Source: Lachnospiraceae bacterium | GTDB taxonomy: Bacteria > Bacillota > Clostridia > Lachnospirales > Lachnospiraceae | Direction: 5' to 3' | Assembly (NCBI GenBank): GCA_017468395.1 | Contig: JAFUIR010000004.1 | Location: 62,001 to 126,000, forward strand | Length of the DNA: 64,000 nucleotides | Shown: positions 8,671-59,447 of the stretch, piece by piece | Numbering within the stretch: the first letter of the stretch is position 1 | Layout of the letters: the number at the start of each line of letters is the position of its first letter | Made by a program: the position numbers and the translations under genes | Notes under the pieces: generated by a model | Databases searched by the model: none | Seen by the model: the letters and a program-made list of their open reading frames with translations, nothing else | Told to the model about the DNA's origin: nothing

Positions 8671-10830
8671 TTATTCTTTTACAAATTCAATCGATCTGGT
8701 AAAAGTCTTCTCTTCTGTGGTTCCCGGTGTAATCACTTCCGCACCGGTTTCCGGGTCAACGGTAGCCGTTCCCGGGGTTGTCACTGTGTAAGTGAAAGTA
8801 ATGATTCCGGTAGGCGAAGGAATTCCCGAACCGTTAGCCGAAATAGGAAACGCACTGGTGGTTGTATCCATTATTAGTTTCCCTTCACTGGTAGTAATCG
8901 TTACTTTTACGGGAGTGCCAGACACATAGTCCGGTGCCTCTGCCATGGTCGGAGCCGCAATGCTGGCATTTAATTTGTACGTTGCCTTGGTAGGCCCCAT
9001 ACTTACCTTAATGTCAACAGCAGTTCCTTTTTCCGCATACGCTCCGTAGGAATAACTCTGGTAACATACCAAACCTTCTTCATATTCATCACTGGCCATC
9101 TGGCTGGTGTTTCCTACCGCAAGTCCGGCCTCTATGATTTTGGCAACCGCTTCGTCCTCCGGTACCCCCAGCAAATTGGGGACACGCACTCTGGTATCTT
9201 CCACACCGAGGCTGACTGTCACTGTGACAGAGGAACCTTCCGGTGCTTTGCTTCCTGCTGCGGGATTTTGATAAATAACATTGCCCTTGGGTACTGTAGA
9301 ATTGTAACTTTCAAGTTTATTTACCACAAAACCCTTGGACGCTAAGGCATTAAAGGCAGCTTCATAAGAAATATTCATAACATCCGGAATTTTAACGCCC
9401 TCTGTACCGGAACTTACGGTCAATGTAACAATCGTACCCGGCGCAAGTTCGGTTCCCACGGACACATCTGCGCTGATAACAATGCCTTCTTCAAACGCCT
9501 CTGACTCCATATACTCTACTTCCGGTTTTAAACCGATTTCCCGCAAAGCATCTGTAGCCTCATCCAATTTCATGCCGGCCACGGAAATCATTTCCACAGG
9601 AATTGGTTCCTCGGACTCTTCCGGCGTCTGTGACGGTATTTCCGTTTCCGTCTGTGTCTGGGTCTGGGTTTCTGTGGAACCGTCTATCACTTTATTGCCC
9701 GTATCCCCCATCTGGAACAAACCCGCAATTTTTCCTACCATAAAAATGATAATACAGCAAATAACAATACCTGTTATCACCGCCAAAATGGTGGTCACTC
9801 TTTCCATTTTGGGGTTGTAATCATCTCCGTCTGCTTCCGCTTCGCCGGTTTCTTCATCCCAGTCAATTCCGCCGGTATCTGTACGCAGACGCATAGTTTC
9901 CTCCGCAGTATTTCTACCGGTCTGGCTCCTAATCTGGTCTACATCAGACTGAGGAATAAATCTGGTGGATGTCTCCGCCTCTGCATCATGGAACACTACA
10001 AAATCTGCTTCCGGCTGTTTCAAAGACTGCTTTAAATCTTCAATCAGTTCCCCCATGGACTGATATCTTCTGTCCGGGCTCTTCTGACAACACTTCAAGA
10101 CAATCTGGTCTACACTGTTTGGAATTTCTGCCACAAACTCTTTGGGTGCAGGTAATTCTTCCTGAATATGTTTAATGGCAATTGCCACGGTGGTTTCTCC
10201 GTTAAAGGGCACTCTTCCCGTAAGCATTTCAAACATTGTGATACCCAGCGAATACACATCACTTTTTTCATCACTGTAACCGCCTCTGGCCTGTTCGGGC
10301 GAGGTATAATGCACAGAGCCCATTACATTGGAGGTAATAGTGTTACTGGTGGCAGCCTTGGCAATACCAAAATCTGTTACCTTTACTTTTCCCTCTTTGG
10401 ATATAATAATGTTCTGGGGCTTAATGTCTCTGTGAATAATATGGTTATTATGGGCAGCTTCAATACCCATGGAAACCTGCAAAGCAATGCTGACCGCCTC
10501 TTTATAGGACAGTCTCGCCTTCTTTTCAATATATTTTTTTAAGGTGATTCCTTCCACCAGTTCCATAACGATGTAATGAATCCCGTTTTCTTCTCCTACA
10601 TCATATACATTCACAATGTTCGGATGCATCAGACCTGCTGCCGCCTGTGCCTCAATCCGGAATTTGGATACAAAATTTGCATTCTCCGAAAACTCCTGTT
10701 TCAGCACCTTAACAGCCACAAAACGGTTCAGTTTATGGCACTTTGCTTTATATACATCCGACATACCGCCGGTACCGATTTTTTCCAGTATCTCGTAGCG
10801 GTCGCCAATTAACATACCAATTTTAATCAT
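8671..10830 (-). CDS. pknB: PASTA-domain eukaryotic-type Ser/Thr protein kinase (PrkC/PknB/Stk1)
   Basis: Membrane kinase that senses wall fragments and phosphorylates cell wall and translation targets. 719 residues. Seen: kinase domain (about 1-270) with GTGGMSDVY, VAVKVL, HRDIKPQNI and DFG; acidic juxtamembrane region; one membrane helix near 345-370; a Thr/Gln-rich linker; three PASTA repeats (roughly 410-475, 476-542, 545-612); and a C-terminal Thr-rich domain of about 100 residues. The ATG at 10830 follows AAGGAG with ideal spacing; the longer frame starts on a TTG overlapping that site. It lies 17 bases after the PP2C phosphatase, the usual kinase-phosphatase pair. Confidence 0.96.
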   Translation of the reverse strand: MIKIGMLIGDRYEILEKIGTGGMSDVYKAKCHKLNRFVAVKVLKQEFSENANFVSKFRIEAQAAAGLMHPNIVNVYDVGEENGIHYIVMELVEGITLKKYIEKKARLSYKEAVSIALQVSMGIEAAHNNHIIHRDIKPQNIIISKEGKVKVTDFGIAKAATSNTITSNVMGSVHYTSPEQARGGYSDEKSDVYSLGITMFEMLTGRVPFNGETTVAIAIKHIQEELPAPKEFVAEIPNSVDQIVLKCCQKSPDRRYQSMGELIEDLKQSLKQPEADFVVFHDAEAETSTRFIPQSDVDQIRSQTGRNTAEETMRLRTDTGGIDWDEETGEAEADGDDYNPKMERVTTILAVITGIVICCIIIFMVGKIAGLFQMGDTGNKVIDGSTETQTQTQTETEIPSQTPEESEEPIPVEMISVAGMKLDEATDALREIGLKPEVEYMESEAFEEGIVISADVSVGTELAPGTIVTLTVSSGTEGVKIPDVMNISYEAAFNALASKGFVVNKLESYNSTVPKGNVIYQNPAAGSKAPEGSSVTVTVSLGVEDTRVRVPNLLGVPEDEAVAKIIEAGLAVGNTSQMASDEYEEGLVCYQSYSYGAYAEKGTAVDIKVSMGPTKATYKLNASIAAPTMAEAPDYVSGTPVKVTITTSEGKLIMDTTTSAFPISANGSGIPSPTGIITFTYTVTTPGTATVDPETGAEVITPGTTEEKTFTRSIEFVKE

Positions 10831-55273: not shown

Positions 55274-55798
55274 TTATTTGCCTTCGTAACAAATTGCAGA
55301 GTCCAAACGATACCCCTGCAGTCTCTCTCTTCCTTTAAGCCCTGCCAGTTCAATCAGTACAACCACACCTACTACTTCGCCGCCAAGTTCTTCAATAAGT
55401 TCAATCATGGCTTTGGTAGTACCGCCTGTAGCAATCAAATCGTCCACAACAAGTACTTTCTGTCCGGGTTTTATAGAATCTTTGTGCATTTCAATTACTG
55501 CCGTTCCGTATTCCAGAGCATATTCTTTTTCTACTGTTTCACAAGGCAGTTTACCTTTTTTGCGGATAAGTACAAAGGGCTTATGATTATTGTATGCAAT
55601 AGGCGTTCCAAAAATAAAGCCTCTGGATTCCGGTCCTACCACCACGTCATAATCCAAATCTTTTATCTTTTCCTGCATAGTATCGATAGCAAGATGTAAA
55701 CCGTCTGCATCCTGCAAAACACTGGTAACATCTCTGAAAATGATCCCCTCTTCCGGGAAATCAGGAATACTTCTTACATATTCTTCCAACTTTTTCAT
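55274..55798 (-). CDS. apt: Adenine phosphoribosyltransferase
   Basis: Salvages adenine to AMP with PRPP. 174 residues. Seen: FPEEGIIFRDVTSVL near the N-terminus, GPESRGFIFGTPIA, and PRPP-binding VLVVDDLIATGGTTKAM. apt next to relA is a well-known Firmicute arrangement. A sigma-A-like promoter precedes it. GGAG lies before the ATG. Confidence 0.97.
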   Translation of the reverse strand: MKKLEEYVRSIPDFPEEGIIFRDVTSVLQDADGLHLAIDTMQEKIKDLDYDVVVGPESRGFIFGTPIAYNNHKPFVLIRKKGKLPCETVEKEYALEYGTAVIEMHKDSIKPGQKVLVVDDLIATGGTTKAMIELIEELGGEVVGVVVLIELAGLKGRERLQGYRLDSAICYEGK

Positions 55799-55879: not shown

Positions 55880-56386
55880 TTATTCCCAAACAAGCGTGCC
55901 ATAATATTCTGCATAAAGTACATTTTCTTCAAAGATACTCTCTGCGCAAATTTCCTGTAAAATCCGCTTACATTCCTCTGCCTTCTCCAGATAATATTCC
56001 TGCTTTCCGGTCTCGGAAACCTCTGCCGCTTTCATGTAAATCTGATACTGGTTATAAGTATCGTACATATCTACCTGTTCCCAGAGATAATCAAATTCTT
56101 CCTCATAACTTTGGTCATAATGCATGGACATGGCCAGAGAATCAAAGTCGCCGTTATTACAGTACCATGCGTAAGAATCCAAACGTTTTTCCACCGTATC
56201 CTCATTGAAAGTCGCAATGACACCACCTATAGTCACGACCATTGCCAGAAGTGCCATACCAAAAGCAAGCACAGCACCATAGGCAAGCACGGCCTTTACT
56301 GCCATTTTTTGATAATACCCCAACTTTTCCTTATAAGCAAAAAATGCCCATACAAACGCACAAACTACCACAAATAAAATTTCCAT
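55880..56386 (-). CDS. Unknown two-helix membrane protein (zinc-ribbon cluster, gene 4)
   Basis: 168 residues, not recognised. N-terminal helix (about 3-17), second helix (about 30-60), then an extracytoplasmic acidic and Tyr-rich helical region (about 65-168) with many EEE/YDQ-type turns. Its ATG overlaps the stop of the previous gene by one base (TAATG), so it is translationally coupled to the zinc-ribbon protein. No cysteines or catalytic motifs that I can name. Last in the four-gene unit. Confidence 0.75.
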   Translation of the reverse strand: MEILFVVVCAFVWAFFAYKEKLGYYQKMAVKAVLAYGAVLAFGMALLAMVVTIGGVIATFNEDTVEKRLDSYAWYCNNGDFDSLAMSMHYDQSYEEEFDYLWEQVDMYDTYNQYQIYMKAAEVSETGKQEYYLEKAEECKRILQEICAESIFEENVLYAEYYGTLVWE

Positions 56387-57012
56387 TATTTGGCCCCTCC
56401 CAATCTTTCAAGGAGTTTTTGAACCAGCGCCTCCCGGGCAGCCATGGTATCAGAATAATATTCATGTTCCACTGCAAACTGCGTAATCTCTTCTTCCGTC
56501 ATCTGCAAATAACCAATCATAAAAGCGCGTACCTGTTCTGCAGCCCGGCTGTCCGCCTCGTCTACCAGAATTTTATAACTGTTACTCAGCACATAATCCA
56601 GCGCACTTTCCCTAATTGCCTCGCCGGTATCCACCGCTATGACAATTTCATACATGTACTCCCGCACCATTTCATTTTCTATGCGCCTGTCACTTTCCTG
56701 CGCATACTTCCATGCGTAAGTTCCTTCTTTGGGAGTGCGCGCAATATGGTTATCCGCCAGCATATAAATTCCAAAAGCTGCAACAGTAAAAACAACCGCG
56801 GCTACGGAAAAACTGATAATTACTCTGGTCAAAAGCATTTGTACCATATCGGGAGTGCGGTTCTTTAGAATAAATTGGGGCAAAAGTTTATTTTTTGCCA
56901 TTTTTTCCGCAAGTTCCAACTGAAAAAGTCTTCCGGGTTCATAGGTACTGTTACAATATGGGCAGGCAGTGCTTTGAGAATCTACCTCGCCCCCGCAATT
57001 CGGACACTTCAT
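56386..57012 (-). CDS. Zinc-ribbon membrane protein of unknown function (cluster gene 3)
   Basis: 208 residues. N-terminal zinc ribbon MKCPNCGGEV with CPYC (Cys 3, 6, 17, 20), a helical cytoplasmic region, one membrane helix (about 61-85), and a long extracytoplasmic helical domain ending with FMIGYLQMTEEEITQFA. The MTEEEI stretch is shared with the C-terminus of the next protein at 57014, so the two look like paralogues with the same domain order. One base separates their coding regions. Confidence 0.8.
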   Translation of the reverse strand: MKCPNCGGEVDSQSTACPYCNSTYEPGRLFQLELAEKMAKNKLLPQFILKNRTPDMVQMLLTRVIISFSVAAVVFTVAAFGIYMLADNHIARTPKEGTYAWKYAQESDRRIENEMVREYMYEIVIAVDTGEAIRESALDYVLSNSYKILVDEADSRAAEQVRAFMIGYLQMTEEEITQFAVEHEYYSDTMAAREALVQKLLERLGGAK

Positions 57013-57013
57013 A

Positions 57014-57775
57014 CTACTTCAAATCCCTTTCTAAATATCCATTGACTATTTCCTGCAATTCCTCTTCTGAATCGCATCTTCGCAGATAATCAATTTCCTC
57101 TTCCGTCATTTCAAATTTTTCTTTCAAGAACAAAATCAGTTCCTCTTCCCATGCCATCAGAAGTTTTTCATTTCCCATAATGGCCCTGTCATTAATATAT
57201 TTCTGCAGGGAAGACAGAGCATCAGCCGCATATTCCAAGGTGTAAGACAAATACTGTTTAGCGCTGTCCTCATAAACCTCATATCCGTCATTTTCCTGAT
57301 AGTCCTCAAGTGATTCTACATATCTGTCATAACAATAATAGATATATTCTATACTATACTCGCCCACATCCATAATTTGGCTGTACTTTTCATATTTACT
57401 GTCCCACAGTTCAAAATCACTGTAATACTCATAAAATTTATCCCACTGCTCCTGGGCAATCATATTTTCCAAATTTTCCACATGCTTTTGATAAATCGCA
57501 TACTCAACTTTGGCTGAATACTTACTCCATGCAATGCCGATACCGCCACCCAAAATCAACAGGCTCAGCAATCCCGCCAACACAATAATAACAATGGTGT
57601 GAATTTTATTTACCTTCTTTTCAGGAAGGTCTTTCACTTTCTCCTGTGCCTCTTTATCAATGGCGTGTTTCACTTTCGCCTTCCTTTTTTCTACCATGAA
57701 AGGATTTTCCGACTGACAATGGGGACATCTCTCCAAATGCTTGGAATACTTTCCTCCGCAATAGGAACATATCAT
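57014..57775 (-). CDS. Zinc-ribbon membrane protein of unknown function (cluster gene 2)
   Basis: 253 residues from MICSYCGGKY. N-terminal zinc ribbon (Cys 3, 6, 17, 20), a basic cytoplasmic segment, one membrane helix (about 57-82), then an acidic, Tyr-rich extracytoplasmic helical domain ending KFEMTEEEIDYLRR. The ATG at 57775 follows GGAGG at eight bases; the longer frame from 57853 would put 26 extra residues before the ribbon. Domain layout mirrors the neighbour at 56386. Family unknown to me. Confidence 0.8.
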   Translation of the reverse strand: MICSYCGGKYSKHLERCPHCQSENPFMVEKRKAKVKHAIDKEAQEKVKDLPEKKVNKIHTIVIIVLAGLLSLLILGGGIGIAWSKYSAKVEYAIYQKHVENLENMIAQEQWDKFYEYYSDFELWDSKYEKYSQIMDVGEYSIEYIYYCYDRYVESLEDYQENDGYEVYEDSAKQYLSYTLEYAADALSSLQKYINDRAIMGNEKLLMAWEEELILFLKEKFEMTEEEIDYLRRCDSEEELQEIVNGYLERDLK

Positions 57776-57815
57776 ACATATATCCTCCGCCTCTATTTTC
57801 TTTAGAAATTTTACC

Positions 57816-58172
57816 TTATTTTTCAGTTTTGTGCAACACACTGCGCTCAACATGAATTGTATTCATCCATTCCCGGTCTTCTTCTGTAAAAAGGCTGATT
57901 TTTATAAACAACCTCTGCCCTTCCGGCCAGTAATCCAAAGGAATGTCCATCCGCAGAACCTCAGAAAGAGGCAGCACAGCATCCTGCCTAACACACACCT
58001 TTCTCCCCTGCTCATCATAAAATACCACCGGTAATATTTCTGTTTTCTCCCCTTCCTTTGCCTGTGCGTATTCTGTGTCCAGCATGGCAAAAATCCCCAA
58101 AATCAGCCCTAAAATAAGCCCAAAAATCCATACTAAAACCGTTCCTCTCTTACCACGTAAAAAACAAGCCAT
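57816..58172 (-). CDS. Unknown single-pass membrane protein (cluster gene 1)
   Basis: 118 residues. Short basic N-terminus, one helix (about 11-30), and an extracytoplasmic domain of about 88 residues with hydrophobic-charged alternation consistent with a beta-rich fold. AGGAAGG lies before the ATG. It is first in the cluster after a promoter nested in the rseP terminator. No homology recognised. Confidence 0.72.
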   Translation of the reverse strand: MACFLRGKRGTVLVWIFGLILGLILGIFAMLDTEYAQAKEGEKTEILPVVFYDEQGRKVCVRQDAVLPLSEVLRMDIPLDYWPEGQRLFIKISLFTEEDREWMNTIHVERSVLHKTEK

Positions 58173-58292: not shown

Positions 58293-58321
58293 ATTATAAA
58301 AGCAGCCGGTCACAATATCAA
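58293..58321 (-). promoter_or_regulatory. Promoter of the zinc-ribbon cluster, nested in the rseP terminator
   Basis: On the minus strand: -35 TTGATA (58316-58321), 17 bp, -10 TATAAT (58293-58298). The -35 lies in the loop/stem of the preceding terminator hairpin. Confidence 0.7.
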
Positions 58322-58364: not shown

Positions 58365-59447
58365 CTATCCAAAAATATTGACTAAATCATTAAACAGCAC
58401 CACTACCATCAAGCCAAGGAAAAACACCATACCGATAAAATGAACGATACCCTCTTTTTCCGGCGGCACAGGTTTGCCCCGTACCAGTTCAATGAGCATA
58501 AACACCAGTCTGCCTCCATCCAGTGCCGGAAGTGGCAACAGATTGAGAATACCAAGATTGACGGACAACAGTACCACAATGTTCATCATGCTCAGCACCA
58601 CGCTGGTAACACCATACTGTTTCGCCTCTTCGTAAGTCTTACCTACCACATTCACTGCGATGCCCACAGGACCTGCCACATCCTGACGGTTGAAGTTGCC
58701 GGTAATCAGCATTCCCAAACTCTTATATGTGGAACGTACCCAGTAGCGCAGTTCATGCCATGCATCACGGAAAACTTCGATTCCTTCGCTTTCCTCGTAC
58801 ACACCACCATATACGCCAAGGGCGTAAGTCCCGGTCGATTCATTTAACTTAGGGGTCAGCGTCGTAGTATTCTTCTGCCCCTCTCTCTCATAAACAATTT
58901 CCAAAGCCTCACCTTTGCTAATGGCCATAGTCAGGGAAATGTCTCTGAACAAATACATTTTTTCGCCATCAATGCTTACAATGGTATCTCCCGCCTTAAG
59001 ACCTGCCTCCTGGGCTGCGGAGCCTTCCACCACGTCATACACCTGGGGAAGGTCTTTGGGACTTAAGGAAACCAAAATAATAGCAAAAACAAACGCCAGA
59101 ATAAAGTTAAACAAAGGACCTGCCACTACTGTAGCAATTCTGGACCACACATTAGCCTTTAGGAAGGAACCGGAATCATCCACCGGGGTCGCCTCTGCAT
59201 CCCCTTCTTCCTGCTCTTTTTTCAGTTCCAGCCCATCCTCGCCCTCAAACATACAGGCGCCGCCGATAGGCAGAAGTTTCAGGGCATACACTGTTTCTTT
59301 TCTTTTAAAGGAAAAAAGCGTGGGACCCATTCCCACGGAAAATTCCACTACATGGATTCCGTTCAGTTTAGCAATGATAAAATGTCCGAATTCATGGGAC
59401 AGCACTACCACACCAAATATAAGCACAAATAAAATTAAAGTCATCAT
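58365..59447 (-). CDS. rseP: RIP zinc metalloprotease RseP (site-2 protease)
   Basis: Intramembrane protease that cleaves anti-sigma factors and signal peptides. 360 residues. Seen: HEFGH (about 18-22) in the first helix, a PDZ domain (about 125-200) with VVEGSAAQEAGLKAGDTIVS, LLPLPALDGGRLVFM (second metal/Asp motif) and C-terminal helices. Two tandem ATGs start it. It follows dxr by eight bases. Confidence 0.95.
   Translation of the reverse strand: MMTLILFVLIFGVVVLSHEFGHFIIAKLNGIHVVEFSVGMGPTLFSFKRKETVYALKLLPIGGACMFEGEDGLELKKEQEEGDAEATPVDDSGSFLKANVWSRIATVVAGPLFNFILAFVFAIILVSLSPKDLPQVYDVVEGSAAQEAGLKAGDTIVSIDGEKMYLFRDISLTMAISKGEALEIVYEREGQKNTTTLTPKLNESTGTYALGVYGGVYEESEGIEVFRDAWHELRYWVRSTYKSLGMLITGNFNRQDVAGPVGIAVNVVGKTYEEAKQYGVTSVVLSMMNIVVLLSVNLGILNLLPLPALDGGRLVFMLIELVRGKPVPPEKEGIVHFIGMVFFLGLMVVVLFNDLVNIFG

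Follow-up and report, generated by a model that had tools for sequence, protein, structure and literature searches.

Introduction

Generic zinc-ribbon families such as Zn_Ribbon_1, Zn_ribbon_3 and DZR have the CxxC-CxxC ribbon in common with the proteins analyzed here, but their models are short and uninformative on the membrane and outer parts of these proteins. Zinc-binding anti-sigma factors have a conserved HxxxCxxC motif, and YfgM is a single-pass protein with an outer TPR domain that acts beside SecYEG. YfgM-like proteins resemble those of the present study in being single-pass with a helical outer domain but, to our knowledge, have no zinc ribbon and do not form a paralogous triad. The predicted plan of staphylococcal TcaA comprises an intracellular zinc finger, one transmembrane (TM) segment and most of the protein outside (PMC10328498). 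TcaA (NF053815) shares with our proteins an N-terminal zinc ribbon inside, one TM and an outer domain, but it is a single larger protein rather than a three-gene set, and its outer domain is unmatched in the ribbon proteins for which match coordinates were shown.

The present study analyzes a block of four open reading frames (ORFs) in a 64,000-nucleotide stretch of a Lachnospiraceae bacterium genome (GCA_017468395.1, contig JAFUIR010000004.1, positions 62,001 to 126,000), hereafter the window. Three of them, ZR1 (P0002), ZR2 (P0003) and T (P0004), are well supported as a recurrent three-gene genetic unit, the ZR1-ZR2-T module, which was not found described in the literature searched.

Organization of the locus

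The original prediction was of four adjacent, tightly packed genes for membrane proteins. All four ORFs are present on the minus strand (Table 1), and the spacing is as predicted, with 40 bases between P0001 and P0002, 1 base between P0002 and P0003 and a 1-base overlap of P0003 with P0004, but the unit consists of three genes. P0001 lies outside this module, and its best interpretation is that of an orphaned kinase tail. The flanking genes we take to be rseP and apt, names read off the translations with no database result. A start of P0002 at the listed longer position, 57853, is unlikely because GGAGG lies 8 bases ahead of the ATG at 57775, which is the better start, and no such site precedes 57853. 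The promoter-like site upstream of P0001 may drive both P0001 and the module; the scan of the region gave 11 such sites, against 7.6 expected in shuffles.

Table 1. Features of the locus and of related loci; nucleotide positions without a locus name are those of the window.
Feature	Location	Strand	Description
P0001	57816-58172	minus	118 aa; read as orphaned kinase tail, outside module
ZR1 (P0002)	57014-57775	minus	253 aa
ZR2 (P0003)	56386-57012	minus	208 aa
T (P0004)	55880-56386	minus	168 aa
Promoter-like site	58293-58321	minus	TTGATA-17-TATAAT (11/12), from scan; upstream of P0001
rseP (presumed)	58365-59447		flanks four-ORF block; name from reading of translation
apt (presumed)	55274-55798		flanks four-ORF block; name from reading of translation
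ZR1 ribbon	residues 1-23		CxxC-CxxC; then helix 24-47
ZR1 long helix	residues 51-106		contains single TM, about 61-79
ZR1 helical outer domain	residues 110-251		MTEEEI at 223-228
ZR2 ribbon and TM	TM about residues 64-82		ribbon MKCPNCGG...CPYC
T	TM about residues 39-57		without ribbon; five-helix outer domain
Kinases with P0001-like tail	L197:622-1800; L198:391-1812		two other genera
Non-triad loci (16): short, duplicated or missing ZR1	L056, L062, L068, L129, L130, L132
Non-triad loci: ZR2 in two frames	L061
Non-triad loci: contig end	L136
Non-triad loci: ribbon-less pairs	L189:1779-2772; L190:6138-7237		family f8; two-gene ribbon-less relatives of the module
Non-triad loci: single or no matches	L067, L137, L138, L188, L194, L195

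Relatives of P0001 were found in only two of the 99 other family genomes searched and both are tails of Ser/Thr kinases with PF00069, so a four-gene operon was rejected. P0001 has 31% identity over 102 aa with one of these tails (L198; E 2e-9 as a single comparison) and 42% over 53 aa with the other (L197; 1e-8), and one of the two kinases sits between PP2C and GcpE. The TM and extracytoplasmic tail of these kinases are like those of P0001, but the kinases have a catalytic domain and the window locus has none at P0001; the window's genome, which is 92.7% complete, yielded a single kinase domain, and this is elsewhere, at 10060-10797 of the window. In L225 (2036-5404) of G022, the sole other sampled genome of the genus, three ORFs come after rseP in place of the module: the first is of 210 aa and has no Pfam match, the second is a Ser/Thr kinase, and the third, judged by eye, is presumably GGDEF/EAL-like. 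Neither apt nor the module lies within the 8.5 kb read.

Recurrence and distribution of the module

Gene order was ZR1-ZR2-T on one strand in all 35 complete relatives. These derive from 44 larger loci scanned, 28 with a complete triad and 16 without, and from 22 named loci, eight with a triad, from which L200 was dropped as apparently the same record as L060 (28 + 7 = 35); they include the near-copies L184/L185 and L202/L203, and loci were selected because they matched. The gap between ZR1 and ZR2 ranged from -26 to 154 bases and was at most 19 in 29 of the 35, and that between ZR2 and T ranged from -121 to 112 bases with an overlap of at least 1 base in 30, some of these overlaps being possibly overstated as T starts were assigned mechanically.

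Within the family, 200 genomes were sampled, one for nearly every genus. Searches with single proteins matched ZR2 in 18 of them and ZR1 in 29, and the ZR profile matched below 1e-20 in 25, including the window's own genome. Twenty of these 25 carry a complete triad, three (G009, G073 and G112) have variants only, one (G137) has a broken module and one (G006) is cut by a contig end. At E ≤ 1.7e-9 the T profile matched 31 times, in 24 genomes, and every match adjoins a ZR gene; 20 of them had seeded the profile and had been picked beside ZR genes, but the 11 new ones are also beside ZR. Scattered, unlinked orthologues, which the original prediction named as a refuting outcome, were thus not seen among these strong matches in the 200 genomes. 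In the 25th carrier, G174, the T match was only 7e-5, and six further genomes in the T-profile tally had matches of 1e-4 or worse only. The module is patchy in the family (25/200) and G022 has none by the ZR and T profiles, so it is not generally essential; as the genome search scores 9-20 candidates per genome, such absences are not firm.

At a threshold of 1e-3 the ZR profile had at least one match in 168 of the 200 family genomes, mostly ribbon-TM matches of other proteins, and in the rows shown most of these weak matches map to the N-terminal ribbon-TM part, in frames whose lengths differ. Because of this the ribbon-TM architecture seems to be widespread in the family.

Beyond the family, the module occurs in five other families of the class. 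In the order sample 17 of 196 genomes matched at E ≤ 1e-9, with complete triads in f24 (G236, G268), f8 (G271, G359) and f2 (G363) among the loci read (all 17 except those of G239, G153, G108, G220, G286 and G379). In the class sample 17 of 291 matched at the same threshold, with complete triads in f58 (G420) and f31 (G431, G508) among the loci read (those of all 17 genomes except G239, G434, G486, G491, G512, G547, G549, G575, G595, G616 and G635). Only the window's own genome matched at E ≤ 1e-12 in the phylum sample (1/299).

Named carriers include Oliverpabstia intestinalis, two Candidatus Pullilachnospira and five other MAGs. In Lachnospira eligens ATCC 27750 (NC_012780.1), EUBELI_RS12375, RS12370 and RS12365 are the module, with profile matches of 3e-41, 7e-49 and 2e-19. 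Two of them are annotated only as "zinc ribbon domain-containing protein" and one only as "hypothetical protein", and recognition of the unit provides a defined subunit set in a type strain, which is a place to ask what the module binds.

Several of the loci without a complete triad are rearranged versions of the module. L056, L062 and L129 have the order ZRx-Tx-ZR1short-ZR2-T, that is, with a second pair of a ZR2-like gene and T; L068 has ZRx-Tx-ZR2-T; L130 has a ribbon-bearing ZR, a short ZR1, a ZR2 that lacks the ribbon, and T; and L132 has a short ZR1, ZR2 and T. Six short ZR genes were listed, of which that of L061 is half of its ZR2 and was left out of the short-ZR1 set. In the short ZR1 of the remaining five loci (L056, L062, L129, L130 and L132; 83-114 aa) the ribbon, stalk and TM are kept and the outer domain is lost, as if ribbon, stalk and TM were the needed part. 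In L061, ZR1 has Tyr at the third cysteine and ZR2 is split over two frames.

Protein structure and the proposed complex

The original prediction described two proteins with a matching CxxC-CxxC ribbon, a single helix and an acidic outer part, and P0002 and P0003 are indeed of this kind, with an N-terminal CxxC-x10-CxxC, then one strongly hydrophobic stretch and then an acidic outer part. The net charge of the outer part is -25 in P0002, -10 in P0003 and -19 in P0004. The AF2 models of ZR1 and T have a mean pLDDT of 92.2 and 92.3, respectively. Hydropathy, charge and the AF2 model are the basis for a predicted topology with the zinc ribbon inside, a single TM and an outer domain, and we regard this topology and the helical outer domains as supported, although more weakly. 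The original prediction of a small set of membrane proteins, with zinc ribbons that presumably lie in the cytosol and outer domains that are helical, is supported as well.

The window's own proteins differ somewhat from their relatives. ZR2 has a shorter outer domain than in the 35 complete relatives, where ZR2 is 243-348 aa long. T has an extra N-terminal hydrophobic stretch absent from 16 aligned relatives, and an internal start near codon 28 is possible because T relatives are 135-186 aa long (with mechanical starts). The hexapeptide MTEEEI, predicted to end both ribbon proteins, is present in both ZR1 and ZR2 but 25 and 32 residues, respectively, before the C-terminus. As the relatives have only a loose T-x-E-E, it was rejected as a shared motif or end signal.

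The four ribbon cysteines are present in window ZR1 and ZR2 and are invariant in the 38-row ZR alignment and also in 36 ZR1 and 43 ZR2, an invariance that is largely by construction, the rows having been chosen by the CxxC-CxxC pattern. Exceptions are known in the ZR1 of L061, the second ZR2 of L130, L189 and L190. Mean pairwise identity was 0.45-0.47 in the ribbon versus 0.14-0.20 in outer segments.

Profile alignment of ZR1 with ZR2 extends across almost the full length of both (hhalign E 5e-32, 242 columns), and by this comparison the two are old duplicates. A maximum-likelihood tree of 83 ZR rows split them, at a support of 67/93, into one side with every ZR1 (36) and another with all 43 ZR2 and four ZRx, ZRx appearing as a late ZR2 duplicate, and gives moderate support to ZR1 and ZR2 as two separate lineages. 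Alignment of the T and ZR profiles had a probability of 93-94% and E of about 2e-7 to 4e-7 (single comparisons) and spans the TM and the beginning of the outer domain; the T profile also matched some ZR outer domains at 1e-4 to 1e-5. T thus probably shares its outer domain with ZR1 and ZR2, which is likely rather than proven. Distance matrices of the three genes over 36 loci were correlated (mirror-tree Spearman 0.72, 0.64 and 0.71, each with 0/1000 permutations as high), consistent with one unit, but such correlation follows equally from the shared ancestry of the host genomes.

We lean slightly toward the view that ZR1, ZR2 and T are subunits of a single-pass membrane complex serving as a receptor or scaffold. 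The physical complex, its stoichiometry, zinc occupancy and partners, and the sensing or scaffolding role are all things that we infer. Because of the anatomy of the proteins, the complex would have two cytosolic ribbons and three related outer domains. ZR1, ZR2 and T would be made and inherited as a unit, each subunit having one membrane helix that continues, outside the cytoplasmic membrane, as a helical and mostly acidic domain, and these outer domains, which probably had one common ancestor, would be packed together. On the cytosolic side, ZR1 and ZR2 would each carry a short helical stalk and a zinc ribbon with four cysteines, placing two ribbons next to each other. The fast-changing outer domains could engage a partner in the envelope, and the paired ribbons, which are conserved, could hold a cytosolic partner or report binding to that partner. 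Against this reading are the patchy occurrence, neighbours that offer no clue to function, the separation of ZR1 from ZR2 at only 67/93, the loss of part of the outer domain in the window's ZR2, and a ribbon that is not kept everywhere. A more specific proposal, possible but put forward tentatively, is a heterotrimeric envelope receptor of gut Clostridia, with an outer fold unseen in solved structures, signalling inward through the juxtaposed ribbon pair; it would have arisen when an ancestral ribbon-TM-helical gene was duplicated and the third copy then lost its ribbon. The "envelope sensor or assembly complex" of the original prediction was, on this analysis, a plausible guess.

Family matches and other possible functions

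As originally predicted, the proteins of the window belong to no named family, with no Pfam or NCBIfam match at the curated cut-off; the best matches of ZR1 and ZR2 were mostly ribbon models. At E ≤ 0.01, PF13240 Zn_Ribbon_1 matched 19 of the 38 aligned ZR relatives, PF13248 Zn_ribbon_3 matched 16 and PF12773 DZR nine. Other families that matched more than one of the 38 were named ribbons or the short uncharacterized DUF7577 (10), UPF0547 (6) and DUF7575 (5). No family matched more than one of 20 T proteins. Where match coordinates were shown, no recurrent family model covers these proteins past their ribbon region, and none of the solved folds is prominent.

Weak TPR signals were present, with SRP_TPR_like in one of the 38 ZR members at 5.9e-4 and a designed CTPR2 at E 0.57. 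Together with the helical outer domains and single-pass topology, these could suggest an envelope chaperone or translocon-ancillary complex, in which TPR-like outer domains hold newly exported proteins, as YfgM does beside SecYEG, with docking of the ribbons close to the translocon or ribosome. We consider this unlikely, given that the TPR signals are near noise, that no Sec-named family is among the 25 commonest of 198 neighbour families, and that the distribution is patchy.

An anti-sigma model matched one of the 38 ZR members at 8.7e-4, and HxxxCxxC can be read at H13-C20 in window ZR1. Both observations, and the topology, fit a membrane-tethered regulator whose ribbons sequester a sigma factor, or another factor of transcription or proteolysis, until an outer signal sets it free. 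However, it is the four cysteines that are conserved columns and not the ZR1 histidine, so that the HxxxCxxC of zinc-binding anti-sigma factors is absent from the conserved ZR columns, and no sigma-factor family is among the same 25 commonest neighbour families; such a regulator is quite unlikely.

The same gross plan as TcaA could also indicate a set of TcaA-type wall proteins with an effect on wall polymers, in which the ribbon serves as a general-purpose anchor in the cytosol. NF053815 matched 14 of the 38 ZR members at E ≤ 0.01, the best at 1.4e-7 in a member whose match coordinates are outside the set shown. Where coordinates were shown (window ZR1, L053, L062 and L066), however, the matches end at ribbon, linker and TM, covering residues 2-90 at most, and scores among the members shown were 15-25 bits against a cut-off of 550 (15.3 for window ZR1 and 15-24 for relatives shown). 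ZR2 and T of the window had no match at E ≤ 1, and we consider a TcaA-type function very unlikely.

Genomic context and selection

Genes around the module are varied. The Pfam family seen most often in 138 neighbour proteins, ABC_tran, occurred in seven; there was no common family, and none in this set gives a functional clue to the module. The set was obtained after exclusion of ORFs below 120 aa or above 1000 aa, of eight loci without the module or nearly identical to another, and of L203, and 10 of the resulting 148 ORFs were dropped, namely four long ones (L050, L061, L130 and L205) and two each from the close loci L183, L199 and L201. Blast clustering over 20 loci gave one non-module cluster spanning six loci, probably ABC transporters, plus smaller ones. 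A conserved fourth gene was rejected, 26 neighbour ORFs inspected by eye being enzymes, transporters and regulators where recognizable, with several that look spurious. In L. eligens (L226:2120-5141) a substrate-binding protein and an ATP-binding protein, the latter read as a hybrid sensor kinase, are encoded directly upstream of the module on the same strand.

The patchy, context-free occurrence of the module and its presence on a 627-kb replicon in L. eligens could reflect a defence, selfish or phage-origin module carried between genomes. Some phage protein families of unknown function did match the N-terminal ribbon-TM part, phrog_6586 at 2.4e-5 (L066 ZR2, residues 1-72) and 6.6e-4 (P0003) and phrog_9700 at 2e-4 (L066 ZR1), but all PHROG matches with E < 1e-3 start at the ribbon, and the best PADLOC value for seven proteins scanned was 0.014. 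Searches of phage records with one ZR2, and of viral contigs with a pair of ZR2, gave no relative, and the two plasmid records matched are both Lachnospira replicons of 627-629 kb. With mostly housekeeping-like neighbours and purifying selection also speaking against it, such an origin is highly improbable.

The ratio dN/dS was 0.08-0.18 in nine of nine comparisons of module genes, made in three pairs of relatives other than the window, with dS up to 2.2 so that the most distant values are rough; the values point to purifying selection on the module genes in these pairs. Low dN/dS and the order kept in 35/35 loci argue that the module is more than chance. In the comparison of L066:4860-7028 with L199:5154-7196, the module had dS of about 1.0-1.4 and two flanking genes had dS of 0.1-0.16, as if the module had been locally exchanged or the flanks were strongly constrained.
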